The notes: generated from the sequence alone by a model not told the origin. Shown: positions 12,695 to 45,725, numbered from the stretch's first letter. The stretch is 45,847 nt of DNA from Deltaproteobacteria bacterium (GCA_018266075.1 JAFEBB010000058.1:1-45847); one strand, 5' to 3'. Numbers and translations are program-made.

Positions 12695-15025
12695 CTACGG
12701 GGCGCGCTTGGCATCGGCGTCGATGGCGTCGGCGATGGGGAAGGTGGGGCCGGAGCCCGCGTCCTGGCTCCCGAGCCGCGTGGCCAGCACCGCGCCGATG
12801 ACCACCACCCAGGCCAGCACCGCGATCACCGAGCCCAGCGTGGGGATGCTGGTGGCCACGGTGATGATCGCCGTGCCCGCCGCGAGCTGGCCCACCGGGC
12901 TGAGCTTGCGGTGCAGGGGCAACACCCGGCCGATGAGCACCGCCAGCGCCGAGAAGCCCAGCAGCGAGCCCAGCATCACCAGGATGGCCTCCACCGGCAG
13001 CAAGATGATGCCGATGAGGGTGACGATGAGCAGCAGCGCCAGCACCGGGATGGCCACCGAGCCCAACAGGCCCACCGCGGTGGAGCGCGCCGGCGTCGAC
13101 TGCAGCGCGTGCACCACCCGCTCGATGCCCCGCGGCCAGCCCACCAGCAGAATCAGCCCCAGCGCGAAGTAGAGCCCGAACTTGGCCACCACCCAGCCCA
13201 TGGTGAAGAGCAGCGAGCCGTGCTGCTCATGCGGCGTGGGCATGCCCGGCATCACCGGGATGGAGGGGATGTTCACGTCGGCCTTGAAGCCGTGCACCTG
13301 CGCGCCCGGGTCGATGTGCACCTTGCCGCCCACGCTGGTGGCCTCGTGGCCCACCTCGGCGCCGGGCGCCACGTGGATGTCGCCGCCGAAGGCGCGCACG
13401 TCGTGGTCCACGATGGCGCCGGGGCCGATCTCCACCGAGCCCGCCAGCGCGGTCACGTCGCGGGCGTGGGCGCCGGGCCCGAGCCGCGCGTTGCCGTGCA
13501 CCGACACCAGGTCGCGCACCCGCTCGCCCGGCCCCAGGGTCACGTCGCCGGTGGAAACGCGGTCGTTGCCGTCGGAGCCCTGGGCGTCGGCGGCCTCCTG
13601 CGCGGCCTCGCGCGCCGACTCCTGCGCTTCACGCCGCGCCTCCTCGGCCTCTTCCTGCGCCTCGCGCCGCGCGTCCTCGGCCTCCTCGCGGGCCTCTTCG
13701 GCCGCTTCCTGGGCGTCGTCGCTGTGCACCGAGGCGGTGAAGCCCGGGAACTGGAAGTTGAAGCCCAGGGTGGGGCCGTTGCGCGCCACCGTGACCACCG
13801 TGCCGCGCCGCACCGCCGAGAGCCCCGCCTCCGCGCACACCGCGCGCAGGGCGTCCTCCACGGCCGCGTCTTTGAAGTGCGCGGTGATGGGCCGATAGCT
13901 GCCCTTGGGCATCACCACCGAGAGCCCCGCGGCGTCGAGGATCTTGCGCACCGCCTGGTCGGCCGGCGTGTTCTCGAACTCGCCGGTGAAGGTCTTGCCG
14001 ATGGGCGTGTCGAAGCCCTCGAGCACCTCGCGCGGAGCCTCGGGCGCGGAGTCGCTGCTGCTCACGGTGACGATGGCCCCGTGGCGCTGCACCGAGAGCG
14101 GCGTGCCCCACACCAGCCCGGCGAAGGCCTGCTCCACCGGGATCTTCTCCATGCGCACGCGCACGGTGGCGTCGCCGGCGCGGCCGGTGTGCAACACCAC
14201 GTTCCAGCCCGCCTCTTCACCCACGTGCTGGAGGGCGTCGTCGAGCGAGGTCTGGTCGTCGTAGTCCACCCGCTTGCCCGAAGGCGGCCCGAGGTTCACC
14301 GGGTGCTCCGGGCCAGGCCGAGCGACGGTGATGAGCGAGCCCAGCCGGTGCGCGACGAAGGGACTCCCGCCGAGCACGCCGATGAGCGCTTCTTCCGCGG
14401 GGACGTCGGAGAGCGTGGCGAGCACCGGCTCGTCGCCGGCGCGGCCGGTGTTGAGCACCAGGCCCCAGTTCGCCTGCTCGGTGATCTCGGTGACGGCGTC
14501 GTCGACCGACATCTTGTCCTCGATGGACACGCGCTTGCCCGAGCGCCGGCTCGGCCACTCGCCAGAGAGCGGGCCGTGCATCACCGGCGGCGGAGGCGGC
14601 GCAGGCGAGGCGGGTGCGGCCGGAGGCGCAGGGATGGCCGCGGGCGCGGCTGGAGCCGCGGGAGCAGGGGGCGGCACCGAGAGCCCTGTCGGCGGAACGG
14701 GCGGCACCGGCGCCACCACGGGCATCACCGCGGGCGCGGCGTCGATGGTCTCGCCGCGGCTGCCGTGCCCGTCGAGCTCCAGGCGCATGGTGGTGTCTTG
14801 CCCGGCCTGGATCTTCACCGTCCGCACGACATGGATGCGGTGGGCGCTGCTGGTCAGCCGCAGCTCGTGGGTGCCGGGCGGCAGCGCGAACTGCTGCAGA
14901 GGCGTTTGACCCATGGCCTGCCCGTCGATGGCGATCTCGGTGGTCGGCTCGGTCTCCACCGTGAGGTGGCCCTGGGCCGGCGCGGCGAGCAGCAGCGCGA
15001 GCGCGAGTGTGGACGGCGTTGCCAT
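12695..15025 (-). CDS. PEGA-STN-bactofilin-like multi-domain envelope protein
   Basis: A 776-residue protein with an unusual domain order: signal peptide (1-19), PEGA-like domain (20-86), Ala/Pro-rich linker (95-150), three STN-like modules (about 164-236, 250-322, 343-415), an Ala/Glu/Arg coiled coil (436-482), a run of short beta repeats resembling bactofilin/polymer-forming proteins (490-582; LGPGAHARDV, IGPGAIVDHD, VAPGAEVGHE) and four or so membrane helices (about 605-750). STN modules normally sit in the periplasm before secretins or TonB receptors; here no such channel follows. The protein should be anchored in the inner membrane with its large N-terminal part in the periplasm. It is the last gene of an ECF sigma/anti-sigma operon, 18 bp after the anti-sigma gene, so it is probably an output of that system. 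Confidence 0.85.
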   Translation of the reverse strand: MATPSTLALALLLAAPAQGHLTVETEPTTEIAIDGQAMGQTPLQQFALPPGTHELRLTSSAHRIHVVRTVKIQAGQDTTMRLELDGHGSRGETIDAAPAVMPVVAPVPPVPPTGLSVPPPAPAAPAAPAAIPAPPAAPASPAPPPPPVMHGPLSGEWPSRRSGKRVSIEDKMSVDDAVTEITEQANWGLVLNTGRAGDEPVLATLSDVPAEEALIGVLGGSPFVAHRLGSLITVARPGPEHPVNLGPPSGKRVDYDDQTSLDDALQHVGEEAGWNVVLHTGRAGDATVRVRMEKIPVEQAFAGLVWGTPLSVQRHGAIVTVSSSDSAPEAPREVLEGFDTPIGKTFTGEFENTPADQAVRKILDAAGLSVVMPKGSYRPITAHFKDAAVEDALRAVCAEAGLSAVRRGTVVTVARNGPTLGFNFQFPGFTASVHSDDAQEAAEEAREEAEDARREAQEEAEEARREAQESAREAAQEAADAQGSDGNDRVSTGDVTLGPGERVRDLVSVHGNARLGPGAHARDVTALAGSVEIGPGAIVDHDVRAFGGDIHVAPGAEVGHEATSVGGKVHIDPGAQVHGFKADVNIPSIPVMPGMPTPHEQHGSLLFTMGWVVAKFGLYFALGLILLVGWPRGIERVVHALQSTPARSTAVGLLGSVAIPVLALLLIVTLIGIILLPVEAILVMLGSLLGFSALAVLIGRVLPLHRKLSPVGQLAAGTAIITVATSIPTLGSVIAVLAWVVVIGAVLATRLGSQDAGSGPTFPIADAIDADAKRAP

Positions 15026-15043
15026 GGGGAGCCTCGAAGACGA

Positions 15044-15550
15044 CTAGGCGAGCTGCGCCCGGGGCGCGGTGGAGCGCTGCAGCGCGATCAGCGTGGGGAT
15101 GCACACCGCCGCCGCCGCGGCCAGGAGCGGGAGCCGCCAGGCCTGGAGCACGGGGAGCACCCCGTCCCAGATGACGTGGCTGAAGCGGCCCAGCTGCAGG
15201 ACGGAGGAGAAGACCATCGTGAGCTGCCGGGCCCAGGCGCCGTTGCCAGCGAGGGCGAAGCAGAAGAAGGCGAGCGCCGCGCTGGAGGCGAGCACGGAGA
15301 TGGCCACCTTGCGCTGGCGGGCCAGGGCGGCCTCGCGGTTGGCGATCTGCCCCATCACCGCGGACGTGAAGCGCGGCGGCGGAGGAGGAACGGGCAGCGA
15401 CTCGAGCCCACCGAAGAGCTCGCAGTACTCGGCGAGCTGCGAGCGGCACGCGGGGCACTCGGCGGCATGGGCCTCGGCCTGGACCAGCGCCTCGCCCTCG
15501 ATGAGGTCTTCCGCCAGCTGCTGCAGGAGCTCGTCGGAGAGGTGGTTCAC
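15044..15550 (-). CDS. Zinc-finger anti-sigma factor
   Basis: A 168-residue membrane anti-sigma factor. The N-terminal domain has the zinc-binding HAAECPACR motif (H-x3-C-x2-C), which grips the cognate ECF sigma factor in the cytoplasm. A Pro-rich link leads to hydrophobic helices at about 84-102 and 140-158, so most of the rest lies in or near the membrane with a short outer loop. Its ATG overlaps the stop of the sigma gene by four bases, ensuring balanced synthesis. Release of sigma presumably follows an envelope signal; whether by proteolysis or conformational change cannot be seen. Confidence 0.92.
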   Translation of the reverse strand: MNHLSDELLQQLAEDLIEGEALVQAEAHAAECPACRSQLAEYCELFGGLESLPVPPPPPRFTSAVMGQIANREAALARQRKVAISVLASSAALAFFCFALAGNGAWARQLTMVFSSVLQLGRFSHVIWDGVLPVLQAWRLPLLAAAAAVCIPTLIALQRSTAPRAQLA

Positions 15551-16206
15551 GGCGCCACCTCCTCGGCGCCGGCGAGCTGCTTGCGGAGCTGGGCGCGGGC
15601 GCGGTGCAGCCAGGTCATGACGGTCCCGATGGGCACGTTCAGCACCTCGGCGATCTGCTGATAGGTGAGGTGCTGCTGATGGTACAGCGAGACGACCGTC
15701 CGGTACTTCTCGGGCAGCGCGGCCACGGCCGCATCCAGGGCCTGGGCGGTCTGGGCGCGCTCGAGCTTCTCGTCGCCGCGCTCGGCGCGCTCATCGACGA
15801 GGTCGCGGGGGCGGACGTCGTCCTCATCGCGCGGGGCGTCGAGGGCGACCACGCGGTCGGCCGGCAGCCTGCGGCGCAAGAGGTCGAGGCAGTGGTTGCG
15901 CGCGATGCGCAGCACCCAGGGCGCGAACGGCTGGGCCACGTCGAACGAGGCGATCGACGCGTAGGCGCGCACGAAGGCTTCCTGCGCGGCATCGCCGGCC
16001 TCGTCGCGCTCGCGGAGCAGGCGGTAGCAGAGGGCGAAGACGGCGCGGTGGTGCTGCTCGACCAGGCGGGCGAAGGCGTCGCGCTCGCCGCGGACGGCGG
16101 CCTTGGCGAGTTCGGCGTCGGTTGCGCGAGCCGTGTCGGCCACCCGCTCCCCCGAGGCCCAGTTGGGCCAGGCCATCCCCGATGCCATGGCGAGCGATGC
16201 GATCAT
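15547..16206 (-). CDS. ECF-family RNA polymerase sigma factor
   Basis: A 219-residue sigma-70 factor with only regions 2 and 4. Region 2 spans about residues 42-110 (DAFARLVEQHHRAVFALCYRLL and DAAQEAFVRAYASI, PWVLRIARNHCLDLLRR). Region 4 spans about 160-212 (LPEKYRTVVSLYHQQHLTYQQIAEVLNVPIGTVMTWLHRARAQLRK), including the helix-turn-helix that reads the -35 element. It is held by the anti-sigma factor encoded next. Starts at 16206, 16188 and 16176 are all possible; the first is given because a G-rich site precedes it. The operon probably autoregulates, but I could not define its promoter. Confidence 0.95.
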   Translation of the reverse strand: MIASLAMASGMAWPNWASGERVADTARATDAELAKAAVRGERDAFARLVEQHHRAVFALCYRLLRERDEAGDAAQEAFVRAYASIASFDVAQPFAPWVLRIARNHCLDLLRRRLPADRVVALDAPRDEDDVRPRDLVDERAERGDEKLERAQTAQALDAAVAALPEKYRTVVSLYHQQHLTYQQIAEVLNVPIGTVMTWLHRARAQLRKQLAGAEEVAP

Positions 16207-16263
16207 GCCCCCAACTACGGCCTCCGCGGGACCTTATTTCACGCCCTCGACGCGCTCCGGGAT

Positions 16264-27235: not shown

Positions 27236-27751
27236 TTACTCCTGGAAGCCCGGGCCGCCCTGGGCGCCCCTCCACTTGCCCTCGCGGCCGCCGTGCATGC
27301 GCTCCATCATCTCGTGCTTGAAGTGCGCGAGGAACACGGAGAGCTTGGCCTTCTGCGCCGGGGCCATGCCCTTGCTCACGGTGAGGAGCATGTCGCGGTC
27401 GATCTGCTCCAGCTGGGCGCGGGCGTCGAAGGCCTGCTGGATGGCGGAGTCCACCTGACCGGCAGCCGAGGGGTCGCCGTCCGCGGCGCGATCGAGGATC
27501 TGCTTGCTGGCCTTGAGCTGCTCGTGCAGCGGCTTGCGGCGCTCGTCGAAGGGCGTCATGGCCGCGTCGAGCTGCAGGGCGGCGTTGGCGTCGAGATCGA
27601 GGGCCTCCGCCAGGCCGATGGTGCGCATGGTGTGCATGCGCTTCTCCATCTTGGCCTTCAAGGCCGGGTCGGGCGCCTTCTCATTGAGGATGGGCGCGGC
27701 CAGGGCGAGGGTGGGCGTGAGCAGCAGGGCGGCAGTGATCAGGCGGTTCAT
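27236..27751 (-). CDS. Spy/CpxP-like periplasmic protein (LTXXQ type)
   Basis: A 171-residue exported protein. The signal peptide MNRLITAALLLTPTLALA is followed by an all-helical, Met/Lys/Asp-rich body. The stretch AEALDLDANAALQLDAAMTPFDERRKPLHEQL is like the LTXXQ repeat region of Spy, CpxP and periplasmic heavy-metal sensors, and a His/Met-rich end (HFKHEMMERMHGGREG) could bind metal. It may bind unfolded proteins or metal in the periplasm, as an output or negative signal of the sigma system. Its ATG shares one base with the anti-sigma stop (TGATG). It is followed by a terminator. Confidence 0.83.
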   Translation of the reverse strand: MNRLITAALLLTPTLALAAPILNEKAPDPALKAKMEKRMHTMRTIGLAEALDLDANAALQLDAAMTPFDERRKPLHEQLKASKQILDRAADGDPSAAGQVDSAIQQAFDARAQLEQIDRDMLLTVSKGMAPAQKAKLSVFLAHFKHEMMERMHGGREGKWRGAQGGPGFQE

Positions 27752-28233
27752 CAGTCGTCTCCTTCATCGGAATAGAGGTTAGGGGCGACCTCGGGGTCGT
27801 CAGAGAGCGTGTCGGAAAGGTCGTCGGCGGACTCGACTGGGCCATCGGCCAGGGCCTCGACGACGAGCTCGGAGTCATCCGAGCTGACCGGGTGCTGCGG
27901 CACCGGGATCTTGCCCATGTGGGCCAGCACCAGCAGGCTGGCGGCGATGGCCATCACTGCGCCCACCGTGGCGCGCCAGTAGGTGCGCCGGGTGCGCTGC
28001 TGCGCATTCCACCCGGCGTGCACCTGGCCGGGCATGGCGCCGAGGGCGTGCAGCTCCAGCTCGCCGGGGTTGGGCAGGGTGGCGAGGGCCAGGGTCTCCG
28101 CGAGCGACTCGCGCTCGGCGGCGCACGCGTCGCAGCTCGCGAGGTGGGCTTCGATGCGCTCCCGCTCTTCTGCGGAGCAATCGCCCACGGCATAGGCGGA
28201 GAGCAGGGGCTCGAGCTCGTTGCAGACGCTCAT
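27751..28233 (-). CDS. Zinc-finger anti-sigma factor
   Basis: A 160-residue membrane anti-sigma factor. The N-terminal domain carries AHLASCDACAAER (H-x3-C-x2-C zinc site). One membrane helix is near residues 88-107 (VGAVMAIAASLLVLAHMG). The periplasmic tail is short and very acidic (many Asp/Glu/Ser), unlike the two-helix anti-sigma at 15044. It overlaps the sigma gene by four bases (ATGA) and the Spy-like gene by one. It should hold the ECF sigma factor until an envelope signal arrives; the acidic tail could sense metal or protein. Confidence 0.92.
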   Translation of the reverse strand: MSVCNELEPLLSAYAVGDCSAEERERIEAHLASCDACAAERESLAETLALATLPNPGELELHALGAMPGQVHAGWNAQQRTRRTYWRATVGAVMAIAASLLVLAHMGKIPVPQHPVSSDDSELVVEALADGPVESADDLSDTLSDDPEVAPNLYSDEGDD

Positions 28234-28841
28234 GGGGACTCCTCGGCGGCGCTGACCAGCTTCTGCAGGCGCTTGACCGCGTGGTGGAACGTGACCTTGG
28301 CGTTGTTCTCGGTGATGCCCAGCGCCTTGGCCACGTCGGCGAAGGGAAGATCGGCGTCGACGCGCAGCGTGAAGACCTCGCGCTCGCGGCGCGGCAGTCC
28401 CACGACGGCGCCGCGCACGCGTCGCGAGGCCTCTTCGCGCTCCAGGCGCTGCTGGGCGCTCGCGGCACGATCCGCGCCCACCGCGCCTTCGTCCAAGGCC
28501 ACCAGCTGCCAGCGGGCGCCGTCGCGCGCGTGGTTCTTGCCCAGGTTGATGGCGATGCGGAACAGCCAGGCGCGGAAGGGGAAGGGCTCGTTGCCGCGCC
28601 AGGTGAGGCGGGCGCGGCGGGCGGCGGCGAAGGCGCGGAGGAAGGCGCGCTGGGCCAGGTCGCGGGCGTCGTCGGGGCGGCTCGCGTAGCGGCGGCAGAG
28701 CCCGTACACCGGCTGCTGGTAGCGCCGCACCAGCTCCTCGAAGGCGCTGCCCTTGCCGGCGAGGAAGGCGCGCAGGAGCGCGTCGTCCGTGTCGGGGGGC
28801 GCCGCGGGCACCGGCGAGAGAATGGGACGCAACGCGCTCAC
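28230..28841 (-). CDS. ECF-family RNA polymerase sigma factor
   Basis: A 203-residue sigma-70 factor with regions 2 (about 30-100; SAFEELVRRYQQPVYGLCRRYA, DLAQRAFLRAFAA) and 4 (about 145-195; LPRREREVFTLRVDADLPFADVAKALGITENNAKVTFHHAVKRLQKLV). GTG 28841 is the start. The order sigma, anti-sigma, Spy-like recalls metal- or misfolding-responsive ECF systems such as CnrH/CnrY/CnrX. It is not closely similar in order or tail to the other ECF factor in this window, so the two are probably not recent duplicates. Confidence 0.95.
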   Translation of the reverse strand: MSALRPILSPVPAAPPDTDDALLRAFLAGKGSAFEELVRRYQQPVYGLCRRYASRPDDARDLAQRAFLRAFAAARRARLTWRGNEPFPFRAWLFRIAINLGKNHARDGARWQLVALDEGAVGADRAASAQQRLEREEASRRVRGAVVGLPRREREVFTLRVDADLPFADVAKALGITENNAKVTFHHAVKRLQKLVSAAEESP

Positions 28842-42989: not shown

Positions 42990-43388
42990 TTAGGCCGCGG
43001 CCGCAGCGCCGCCGCCGTTGCCCACGTACTGCGCGTCGCCGAAGCCGAGCATCGGGTAGAAGATCGGCGCGAGCAGCGCCAGGCCAATGCCGAACCCTGC
43101 ACCCTTCCCGAACGCCTTCGCCACGTCGATGGAGACGATGATCACCGCGATGATGCTCACCAGCGGGATGAGGTAGAGCACGATCCACCAGATCGGGCGG
43201 TTCGCGATCTTCAGGATGATCACCAGGTTGTAGATGGGGACGAGGCACGCCCAGCCCGGGTGACCGGCCTTGACGAACGTCTTCCACATGCCGGCCACGA
43301 CGACAGCAACGATGGCCAGCTCGATGACGAGGAAGATGATGGCGCCAATGCCGCCACCCGACGAGTGTGCTGCGTAATCGTTATCCAT
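42990..43388 (-). CDS. DUF5684-like small membrane protein
   Basis: A 132-residue membrane protein with about four hydrophobic segments. ATG 43388 follows a clear AGGAG. The central block KAGHPGWACLVPIYNLVIILKIANRPIWW matches the DUF5684 pattern seen in many bacteria: a small hydrophobic protein with a conserved Gly-Trp and Pro-Ile-Tyr-Asn. The tail is Gly/Ala-rich (GDAQYVGNGGGAAAAA). The function is not known. It is monocistronic. Confidence 0.88.
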   Translation of the reverse strand: MDNDYAAHSSGGGIGAIIFLVIELAIVAVVVAGMWKTFVKAGHPGWACLVPIYNLVIILKIANRPIWWIVLYLIPLVSIIAVIIVSIDVAKAFGKGAGFGIGLALLAPIFYPMLGFGDAQYVGNGGGAAAAA

Positions 43389-43558
43389 GCGTTCTCCTGC
43401 GCCGCGCGGCGCTTATTGAGGCGTCGTGTTGCGCGGAGAGCGTGCGCGGTTTGAGCCGCGAGCGCCCCCGCTCGGTCTCTGCAACGCAGCACTATCGGCA
43501 GAAAGGCAAGGATTCGGCAAGCGCCGTTGCGGGGGCCTGGGGAACGGCTGAGAAGACC

Positions 43559-44737
43559 TCAATGCCCCAGCATTGGCGCAGGGTTGGCCACGATCGAGCG
43601 CAGCGGCGCCGACTCGAGGATCTCTGCGGGATCGAGCCCGCTTGGGGCTTCGCCGAGCTTGGTGGCGAGGTTGGCGGCGCTGGCGAGGAGCTCGTCGAAG
43701 TGCACCGGCGCGTCGCCGCTCACGCCGAAGAAGGCCAGGTTCTCGGCGACGGTCGCCGGCGGCTCGTCCTTGATGGCCTGCACCGGATCCCCGAGCGCGG
43801 GCGCGGCGGAGTCGAGGAGCCGGGCGGCCTCGATGGCGTTCTTGCGCACCGCCTCGTTGGCCTCGAGCGTGCCGCGCACCAGGCGGCGCACGGCTTCGGG
43901 ATAGCGGGCGACGAGCTCCCCGCGCACGACGAGAACGAGATCGAGCAAGTAGGGCGAGTCGGCGCTGGTGGCGAGCACGGCGCCCGCGCGATCCCGCGCC
44001 GCGAGCGACATCTCCGGCGTGAGCCCGGCAGCCGCATCCGCGCGCGACTCGCGAAGCGCGACGGCGGTGCGGGTGGAGTCCGATTCCGGCCCGAGAATCA
44101 CGTCGTGCGCGCTCAGGCCCGCGCGCGCGAGCTCGAAGAGGGCGAAGTAGCGCTCCGGCCCCGAGCGCGGCACGGCGAGCCGCTTGCCGCGGAGGCCCGC
44201 GAGGTTTCCCACGCCCGGCGCCCCCGCGAGCGCCACCGAGCCCTGGCTCCGCGCCACCAGCGCCACCGCGCGCGGCGCCGCAGCGTGGTACGCGGGCCAG
44301 CGCATGCCCAGGTCATCGACGGAGACGAGCGCCGCGTCCACGCCGCCCTGGTCGGCGCCGAGGGTGAGCGCCTGGCGGACGGCGTCGGCGTCGGCGTAGA
44401 CGTCGAGCTGGAGATCGAGGGCGTAGGCCTTGGTCGACGGCGCTTCGGGATGACGGCCGGGCCCGCCTGCGAGCCAGAGAAGCGGAGCGGCGGCGGCGCG
44501 TGGCGGCACGGCGAGCTTGAGCGGCCGGCTGGGCATGGCGTTCAGCCCGGAGCTCGGCGCGACCGCGCCCGGCGGAAAGTCACCCAGCGACAGCGGCGGC
44601 GCCGGCGGCGGCTTCTTGCCCAGCTTCACCAGCCAGGGATCGAGCTGCGGCAGGAAGCCGTAGTGGTGCAGCGTGCCGGCGATGATCGCCAGGCCGGCCA
44701 GGACCAGAAGCAGTTTTCCACCTGGTCCAAGTGACAT
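43559..44737 (-). CDS. Membrane-anchored substrate-binding-like protein (NMT1/THI5 type)
   Basis: A 392-residue protein. Residues 7-25 are a signal-anchor helix (KLLLVLAGLAIIAGTLHHYG), without lipobox. After a Pro-rich linker the body is a periplasmic two-lobe binding protein of the NMT1/SsuA/THI5 type: LKLAVPP, VDAALVSVDDLGMRWPAYH, LAGLRGKRLAVPRSGPERYFALFELARAGLSAHDVIL and AVALRESRADAAAGLTPE. No ABC permease or ATPase is nearby, so it is unlikely to be a simple importer part. Its ribosome site (AGGA) lies in a CAGGAAC repeat unit. It follows the PspA gene by 83 bp on the same strand. Confidence 0.83.
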   Translation of the reverse strand: MSLGPGGKLLLVLAGLAIIAGTLHHYGFLPQLDPWLVKLGKKPPPAPPLSLGDFPPGAVAPSSGLNAMPSRPLKLAVPPRAAAAPLLWLAGGPGRHPEAPSTKAYALDLQLDVYADADAVRQALTLGADQGGVDAALVSVDDLGMRWPAYHAAAPRAVALVARSQGSVALAGAPGVGNLAGLRGKRLAVPRSGPERYFALFELARAGLSAHDVILGPESDSTRTAVALRESRADAAAGLTPEMSLAARDRAGAVLATSADSPYLLDLVLVVRGELVARYPEAVRRLVRGTLEANEAVRKNAIEAARLLDSAAPALGDPVQAIKDEPPATVAENLAFFGVSGDAPVHFDELLASAANLATKLGEAPSGLDPAEILESAPLRSIVANPAPMLGH

Positions 44738-44743
44738 GAATCA

Positions 44744-44817
44744 GTTCCTGGTCGCTGGTTCCTGGTTCCTGGTTGGCGTCCGCCAGGAACCAGGAACAAG
44801 GAACCAGGAACCGAACC
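44744..44817. repeat. Inverted 7-bp repeats forming a 15-bp hairpin
   Basis: GTTCCTG units at 44744, 44758 and 44765 (with degenerate copies between) face CAGGAAC units at 44784, 44791, 44798 (AAGGAAC) and 44805. The arms at 44758-44772 and 44783-44797 are perfectly complementary over 15 bp with a 10-nt loop. It lies between the PspA gene and the binding-protein gene and could change their relative expression or protect the upstream message. Confidence 0.85.
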
Positions 44818-44820
44818 GAG

Positions 44821-45567
44821 CTACTTCACTTCGACCTTCTTGCCGATGGTCTTCTCGCTGCTGCTCGAGCCGACCTCAGAGACCGGGCTCGGCGCTGCGG
44901 GCTCGTTCACGCCCATCTCGAGCTTGAACTGCTTCACCAGCTCCATGGCCTGGATTTTCTGGGCGTCTTCTTCGATCTGCACGCGCTGGTGGTCCACGCT
45001 CTCGAGCGCCATCTGCATGCGCGCCTCGTTGACCGCGGTCTGCTCTTCGATCTTGCGGACCATCTCGTCATGCGTCGCATCGATGCCGGCGACCTGGAAG
45101 CTCTCCAGCGCGTCGGCGACCTTGGACTGCCACTTGGCGCGCCGCGCGTCGCGGATGGCCTGCATGGCCTCCTGGGTCTTCTTCTCCTTCTCCGCCATGA
45201 AGACCTTCTTCACCGTGAGGGCCTTGTCGTAGGCGGCCTTCGCGGTGGTGAGCTGGCCGTCATTGCGGGCCAGCGCGGCCTTCTTCTCCTGGAGCTGGGT
45301 GGCGTACTGGGCGGCGAGGTCGTCGCGGCCGGCCTGGATTCCGGCCTTCACCTTGGCGGTGAGGTCGGCCAGCTCGGCCTTGTACTTGGTGTTTTCCTTC
45401 TCGAGCAGGGTCACGTTCGCCCGAACCATGGCGATGGACTCGTTCATCTTGGGGACCTGGTCGTTCAGGTCGCGCACGTTCTGCTCGAGGATGAGCTCAG
45501 GGTCCTCGACCGACGAGACGAAGAAGCCCACGAACGACCGCATCGCACGCTTGAAGCGGTTCCACAT
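44821..45567 (-). CDS. PspA/IM30-family envelope-stress protein
   Basis: A 248-residue coiled-coil protein of the PspA/Vipp1 (ESCRT-III-like) family, which binds and mends stressed inner membranes. The start is ATG 45567 ([19 protein letters not shown]), giving the basic amphipathic helix of the family; an in-frame ATG 24 bases upstream is less likely. [31 protein letters not shown] and long alpha-helical heptad stretches to about residue 210 match. The C-terminus is Ser/Lys-rich. It lacks the PspBC/PspF partners, so it is probably regulated differently. It is followed by the substrate-binding-like gene on the same strand. Confidence 0.93.
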
Positions 45568-45725
45568 GGCGCAAAGACCCCTTGCCGGCACTGCCGGCCA
45601 CTCCCGCGGACCGTATTCCCCGTGCTGCGTTGAGTCAACGCCAGAGGCGCGGCCCTATTTCGTGAGAACGAACAGTGGGCGGAGAAGGATCTGACCGCTC
45701 GGCAGCTTGTGGAACCTGGTCGGGG
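45568..45725. other. Short spacer with no gene seen
   Basis: No gene is visible. It probably holds the promoter of pspA (minus strand) in its first part. No clear -35/-10 or terminator was seen. Confidence 0.4.

Follow-up and report, generated by a model that had tools for sequence, protein, structure and literature searches.

Described systems and the locus

In the cell-surface signalling (CSS) systems FecA-FecR-FecI, FoxA-FoxR and PupB-PupR, an extracytoplasmic function (ECF) sigma factor and a membrane anti-sigma factor are combined with periplasmic STN-fold domains, and STN domains bind anti-sigma factors in such signalling (PMC7186176, PMC11637429). SigW of Bacillus subtilis, the partner of RsiW, has the published promoter consensus TGAAAC-N16/17-CGTA (PMC2375139), and in the same species an SPFH protein connects PspA to the membrane (PMC8581546). 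Passages of a survey of phage-shock protein (PSP) systems describe Toastrack (DUF4097/DUF2807), PspC and Band-7 proteins as components or partners of these systems (PMC11237479). Here we report a three-gene ECF operon from a 45,847-nucleotide stretch of DNA of a Deltaproteobacteria bacterium of the myxobacterial group (GCA_018266075.1 JAFEBB010000058.1:1-45847), hereafter called the window, whose third gene encodes a 776-amino-acid protein with STN-like modules. RpoE-RseA-RseB systems have the order sigma factor, anti-sigma factor and envelope co-regulator, and the gene order here is comparable.

The three open reading frames (ORFs) lie on the minus strand at 15547-16206 (sigma factor), 15044-15550 (anti-sigma factor) and 12695-15025 (776-amino-acid protein), which bears out both the coordinates and the single operon given in an initial annotation of this DNA. 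Coding signal is strong in all three ORFs (GC content at third codon positions ~0.95). The sigma and anti-sigma genes overlap by 4 nt (15547/15550), and 18 nt separate the anti-sigma stop codon from the start of the third gene. A scan for sigma-70 promoters and terminators returned nothing.

The 219-amino-acid first protein carries sigma regions 2 and 4 without region 3 (Sigma70_r2 and r4_2 in Pfam, 65 bits each and both far over the cut-off) and matches TIGR02937 at 112 bits (cut-off 42.9), which identifies it as an ECF sigma factor. Its closest named NCBIfam model is that of SigW (PRK09641), and its promoter type is nearly identical to that of SigW (PMC2375139). It falls below the SigW equivalog cut-offs (155 versus 209 bits for PRK09641 and 137 versus 243 bits for TIGR02948), and we describe it as SigW-like. 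We know of no STN/beta-helix third component in the SigW system. The second protein has an N-terminal domain with an HxxxCxxC motif, two membrane segments (residues ~81-104 and ~137-160 by hydropathy) and a short periplasmic loop between them. Its matches to zf-HC2 (15.9 versus 22.2 bits in Pfam) and to an NCBIfam anti-sigma model (32.7 bits) are both below the cut-off.

A conserved core is linked to ECF sigma genes

Full-length relatives of the 776-amino-acid protein were not found among genome contigs, plasmids and phages, and the C-terminal core was therefore taken as the query. The genomes compared came from outside the genus and family of the window, and the sigma factor was left out of both homologue queries. 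With a 270-residue C-terminal query, 14 of 16 genomes in the window's order gave a match, and an alignment of four sequences yielded 24 loci when searched against 84,980 species genomes. These 24 loci are spread over Anaeromyxobacter, an Archangium metagenome-assembled genome (MAG), other Myxococcota, Acidobacteriota, Zixibacteria, Bacillota, Armatimonadota and Verrucomicrobia.

In the order set, 9 of the 11 full-module loci have an ECF sigma gene directly upstream of the core, as do all 23 evaluable loci of the larger set (at the 24th, L047, a contig end interrupts the locus). Combined, the core stands behind an ECF sigma gene in 32/34 evaluable chromosomal loci from several phyla. The anti-sigma gene occupies the same place between sigma gene and core in most loci, frequently with 4-nt overlaps, and no common fourth partner gene was found downstream across the homologous loci. 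Chance does not account for this layout, because the core is seen again behind sigma genes in many genomes.

The N-terminal part of the protein is variable. Among 31 homologous proteins scanned, PEGA was matched in one (the window protein), STN in 13 and Bactofilin below threshold in 12; the number of STN modules per protein ranges from 0 to 3. Because PEGA occurs only here and STN varies, the conserved unit is the sigma factor, the anti-sigma factor and the beta-helix/membrane core, and the order of PEGA and three STN modules does not hold as a conserved unit.

Two homologous loci have notable neighbours. On a Nostoc plasmid, a core homologue (L013, 3902-5523) adjoins a PspC-domain gene and has no sigma gene. 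In a Zixibacteria MAG (L055, 4901-5794), the gene behind the core gene by eye resembles one for a DUF4097-type Toastrack protein.

Fusions with anti-sigma-like sequence

A separate anti-sigma gene was not found at the loci of the main Acidobacteriota group. Instead, the core proteins there are extended at the N-terminus, and the extension matches the profile of the anti-sigma factor in hmmsearch with filters off (E values 7e-8 to 1e-3) and in hhalign (E value 4e-5, probability 70%) over the helix preceding the first transmembrane (TM) segment. The extension does not carry the zinc motif, so that its anti-sigma activity is putative. In a Myxococcota MAG (L054), a single 680-amino-acid ORF begins at the sigma stop codon. 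It combines a soluble N-terminus with TM segments, one STN module, the beta-helix and the membrane domain, and it is read as a fusion from its position and layout.

The Acidobacteriota fusion points to a regulatory role for the core protein. Since the core is linked to sigma genes in 32/34 loci and is fused to an anti-sigma-like region in Acidobacteriota, the most probable role of the 776-amino-acid protein is that of a membrane sensor or a co-regulator that acts on the anti-sigma factor and is itself autoregulated, rather than that of an output only.

Domains and modelled structure of the 776-amino-acid protein

A putative signal peptide was read off the sequence, and the PEGA domain, three STN-like modules, coiled coil and membrane helices named in the initial annotation were all recovered. 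PEGA (residues 19-84; 14774-14971, minus strand as for all domains below) scores 33.8 bits against PF08308 (cut-off 20.8) and is followed by a Pro/Ala-rich linker (residues ~95-150; 14576-14743). The protein as a whole matches STN (PF07660) at 49.6 bits (cut-off 28.4). The third STN module (residues ~343-417; 13775-13999) is found by Pfam at 40 bits as well as in the model, whereas modules 1 (residues ~163-237; 14315-14539) and 2 (residues ~250-325; 14051-14278) have weak Pfam matches (16 and 15 bits) and are assigned from the model and from their similarity to each other (BLOSUM62 alignment score 179). These two modules look like a recent duplication.

C-terminal to the STN modules, a charged coiled-coil helix (residues 435-481; 13583-13723) is modelled as a single long helix, with 19 acidic and 6 basic residues in the segment 435-483. 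A right-handed beta-helix of bactofilin/hexapeptide-like repeats follows (residues 488-585; 13271-13564), in which the repeats are conserved as VAxGGDxxxxPGAxV. The membrane domain of ~5 TM helices (residues 605-748; 12782-13213) is indicated by hydropathy and by the model and is conserved in homologues. Hydropathy and basic loops suggest an N-out, C-in topology with the N-terminal part outside.

AlphaFold2 was run with 13 aligned sequences and gave a mean predicted local distance difference test score (pLDDT) of 74. The model shows three beta-alpha-beta STN-like modules (pLDDT ~75-94), the beta-helix (residues 489-585 in the model; 90-95) and the membrane helices (~80-94), and it supports all domains except PEGA; the PEGA region, which has no homologues, and the linker (pLDDT ~40) are modelled at low confidence. 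Foldseek searches of PDB matched the PilQ N0 domain (E value 8e-4), the signalling domains of FpvA, PupB, PupA and FecA, and the CSS domain of the anti-sigma factor PupR; PilQ N0 alone passed an E value of 0.001, and the other matches rest on match probability and target TM-score. Foldseek matches to the SV2A transporter and to ice-binding proteins were set aside, since they reflect general similarity among membrane helices or beta-helices, and a sequence search of PDB gave only matches driven by composition.

The initial annotation had named two outcomes that would count against it, namely a structure prediction showing no STN or bactofilin-like fold, and homologues never linked to a sigma factor. 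Neither occurred, as the STN fold was found and a sigma gene adjoins almost all homologues.

The STN fold also bears on a specific form of regulation, in which the third protein shields the anti-sigma factor from proteolysis until stress lifts the shield and proteolysis frees the sigma factor, as in RseB/RseA or FoxA/FoxR. The STN-type domain of FoxA protects FoxR (PMC11637429), and the operon order resembles rpoE-rseA-rseB. However, no sequence or fold relation of the 776-amino-acid protein to RseB was found, and the periplasmic loop of the anti-sigma factor is short. We consider this version unlikely as stated; it is a special case of the broader regulatory explanation, and the present data do not distinguish it from other modes of anti-sigma regulation.

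The beta-helix had been annotated as bactofilin-like repeats. The modelled beta-helix and the sub-threshold matches in 12/31 homologues support this annotation in part, but the 776-amino-acid protein has no Bactofilin (PF04519) match in Pfam and a Hexapep hint of 19 bits is below the cut-off. A single late Foldseek match is to the Thermus bactofilin 6rib (TMt 0.52). These resemblances would suit an envelope-shaping periplasmic filament of the bactofilin type; a periplasmic filament anchored to the membrane had been suggested in the initial annotation. This is the weakest idea considered and we regard it as very improbable, given a beta-helix that is short (~100 residues), weakly bactofilin-like, placed between the coiled coil and the TM helices, fused to a membrane domain and predicted to be periplasmic. 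To our knowledge, known bactofilins are cytoplasmic.

A SigW-like promoter and a candidate regulon

A predicted ECF promoter, TGAAATA-N15-CGTA (TGAAATAAGGTCCCGCGGAGGCCGTA; 16216-16241, minus strand), precedes the sigma gene, and it conforms to a conserved SigW-like motif of the form [TC]GAAATA-N15/16-CGTA that is one base off the published SigW consensus (PMC2375139). The pattern GAAAT-N15-17-CGTA is present ahead of the sigma gene in 11/33 loci versus 0.24% of random segments, and all 11 belong to the window's order or to other Myxococcota. A relaxed motif is present in 26/33 loci versus a background of 1.2%, many of these loci being close Acidobacteriota. The operon is apparently autoregulated, and this sigma factor presumably reads the motif itself. 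In the window, 9 nt separate the end of the -10 element from the sigma start codon. This distance from CGTA to the start codon is exactly 9 nt in six genomes (window 16206-16219, L111, L117, L128, L132 and L133), which suggests a leaderless sigma mRNA.

Across the window genome, GAAAT-N15-17-CGTA occurs at 30 sites versus 2 for a reversed control, and sites precede DUF4097, DUF2807, Yip1 and SPFH genes and those of several membrane proteins. The TGAAAC variant has 7 matches versus 2 for the control. Genome G011 of the comparison set has seven sites, including those ahead of the sigma operon, Yip1, DUF2807, PspC and a small beta-helix protein. Sites precede the sigma gene and Yip1 in G006, the sigma gene and, weakly, Yip1 in G013, and the sigma gene only in G004. 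There are 1-3 Yip1 genes per genome, and a chance overlap with the motif is expected in fewer than 0.001 cases per genome. The small protein of G011 (L108, 967-1473, minus strand) has 169 amino acids and beta-helix-like repeats without the C-terminal membrane domain.

The only other site in the window with at most two mismatches, CGAAATA-N15-CGTT (45637-45662, minus strand), is a probable second promoter ahead of pspA. Its position weight matrix score of 16.0 bits is the second best in the window (next best 14.1), and the called pspA ORF begins 46 bp downstream of it, with a likelier ATG ~70 bp away. The PspA/IM30 gene (44824-45591, minus strand; PF04012, 60.8 bits) is a candidate regulon member. 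PspA, PspC and Toastrack genes are tied to the motif in silico by promoter matches, and the best reading of these matches is that the ECF system may control a phage-shock-type envelope stress regulon.

The promoter also bears on whether the third protein is purely an output, that is, an envelope-protecting membrane scaffold that is produced upon sigma release, placed in the operon only for co-expression and with no part in signalling. The initial annotation had called it the output of the operon, and this agrees with a gene in an apparently autoregulated sigma operon. The G011 protein behind the same motif indicates that beta-helix proteins can be regulon members, and the Nostoc homologue adjoins a PspC gene in the absence of a sigma gene. 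Nevertheless, the near-universal place of the core directly behind the anti-sigma gene across phyla and its fusion with anti-sigma-like sequence in Acidobacteriota would be unusual for a mere target gene and point to regulation. We therefore judge a pure output role to be unlikely.

A proposed envelope-stress module

Our preferred explanation, to which we assign a probability of about 0.6, is that the operon encodes an autoregulated ECF envelope-stress module whose third protein is a regulatory component that senses damage and acts on the anti-sigma factor. In this scheme, the two-TM anti-sigma factor would hold the SigW-like sigma factor at the inner membrane. The 776-amino-acid protein, anchored by its ~5 C-terminal TM helices, would display the beta-helix, coiled coil, three STN modules and PEGA in the periplasm, where these domains would sense envelope damage and where PEGA and STN might touch the cell wall or outer-membrane partners. 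The signal would cross via the membrane domain to the anti-sigma factor and free the sigma factor, which would then transcribe its own operon and membrane-protection genes (Yip1, DUF2807/DUF4097 Toastrack, SPFH, PspC and probably PspA). The computation shows the order of the genes, their domains and modelled folds, the conservation of both linkage and promoter, and the gene families that the promoter precedes, whereas we infer the topology, the contact with the anti-sigma factor, the direction of regulation, the signal and the reading of the motif by this sigma factor. The annotated idea of a periplasmic sensor that is anchored in the membrane and tied to an ECF factor gains support from the fold, the predicted topology and the very strong gene linkage.

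Several observations weigh against this explanation. Two chromosomal loci (L038 and L044) and the Nostoc plasmid locus have no linked sigma gene, and 11 of the 32 linked loci are from closely related Acidobacteriota. As some members lack STN or PEGA, neither can be the part on which sensing depends throughout the family. Because the anti-sigma factor has a short periplasmic loop and no CSS domain, a FecR-like contact with STN is not obvious. The match of the L054 N-terminus to the anti-sigma profile is not significant (E value 0.14) and its model is of low confidence. Among the 30 motif sites of the window genome, many are not ahead of envelope genes, having no evident start nearby or preceding unrelated genes. 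Sites in G003 precede the sigma gene, Yip1, DUF2807 and PspC, but the motif and its control each occur 9 times, so that this list needs care. Finally, the pspA site carries two mismatches and turned up after the regulon idea existed.

Action of the STN modules on the anti-sigma factor is offered as a working analogy to cell-surface signalling and not as membership, since a TonB receptor and a CSS domain are both absent. The operon contains no receptor gene, beta-barrel or FecR domain, and the protein that carries the STN modules is predicted to sit in the inner membrane, unlike the arrangement in the Fec, Fox and Pup systems. The candidate targets include a PspA gene and an SPFH protein, which can be compared with PspA and YdjI of B. 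subtilis (PMC8581546), and the candidate regulon families (PspA, PspC, DUF2807/DUF4097 and Band-7/SPFH) are named as components or partners of PSP systems (PMC11237479). ECF sigma control with an STN/beta-helix protein is absent from the passages of the PSP survey considered here, and the term 'anti-sigma' does not appear in its main text (PMC11237479).

No earlier description of the operon or its third protein was found in the literature searched, though one may exist in the main ECF classification. More tentatively, and at somewhat less than even odds, these loci may represent a class of ECF signalling, spread over several phyla and not described before, whose STN/beta-helix protein senses envelope damage from the inner membrane and gates the anti-sigma factor; in Myxococcota, the system would then be the transcriptional controller of a phage-shock/Toastrack membrane-repair regulon. 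If true, an ECF group without a known signal would gain a named sensor and a regulon open to testing, STN signalling domains would be connected with stress sensing at the inner membrane in the absence of TonB receptors, and phage-shock-type repair would come under the control of an ECF factor in Myxococcota. Owing to the natural fusions and the conserved promoter, the hypothesis can be put directly to the test in cultured Anaeromyxobacter.

Other features of the window

At 42993-45591 (minus strand), pspA is followed by an NMT1-like gene and then by a DUF5684 gene. A second pair of ECF sigma and zf-HC2 anti-sigma genes, followed by a gene for a Metal_resist-like protein (sub-threshold match), is located at 27239-28841 (minus strand) and is possibly another ECF system of a different kind.

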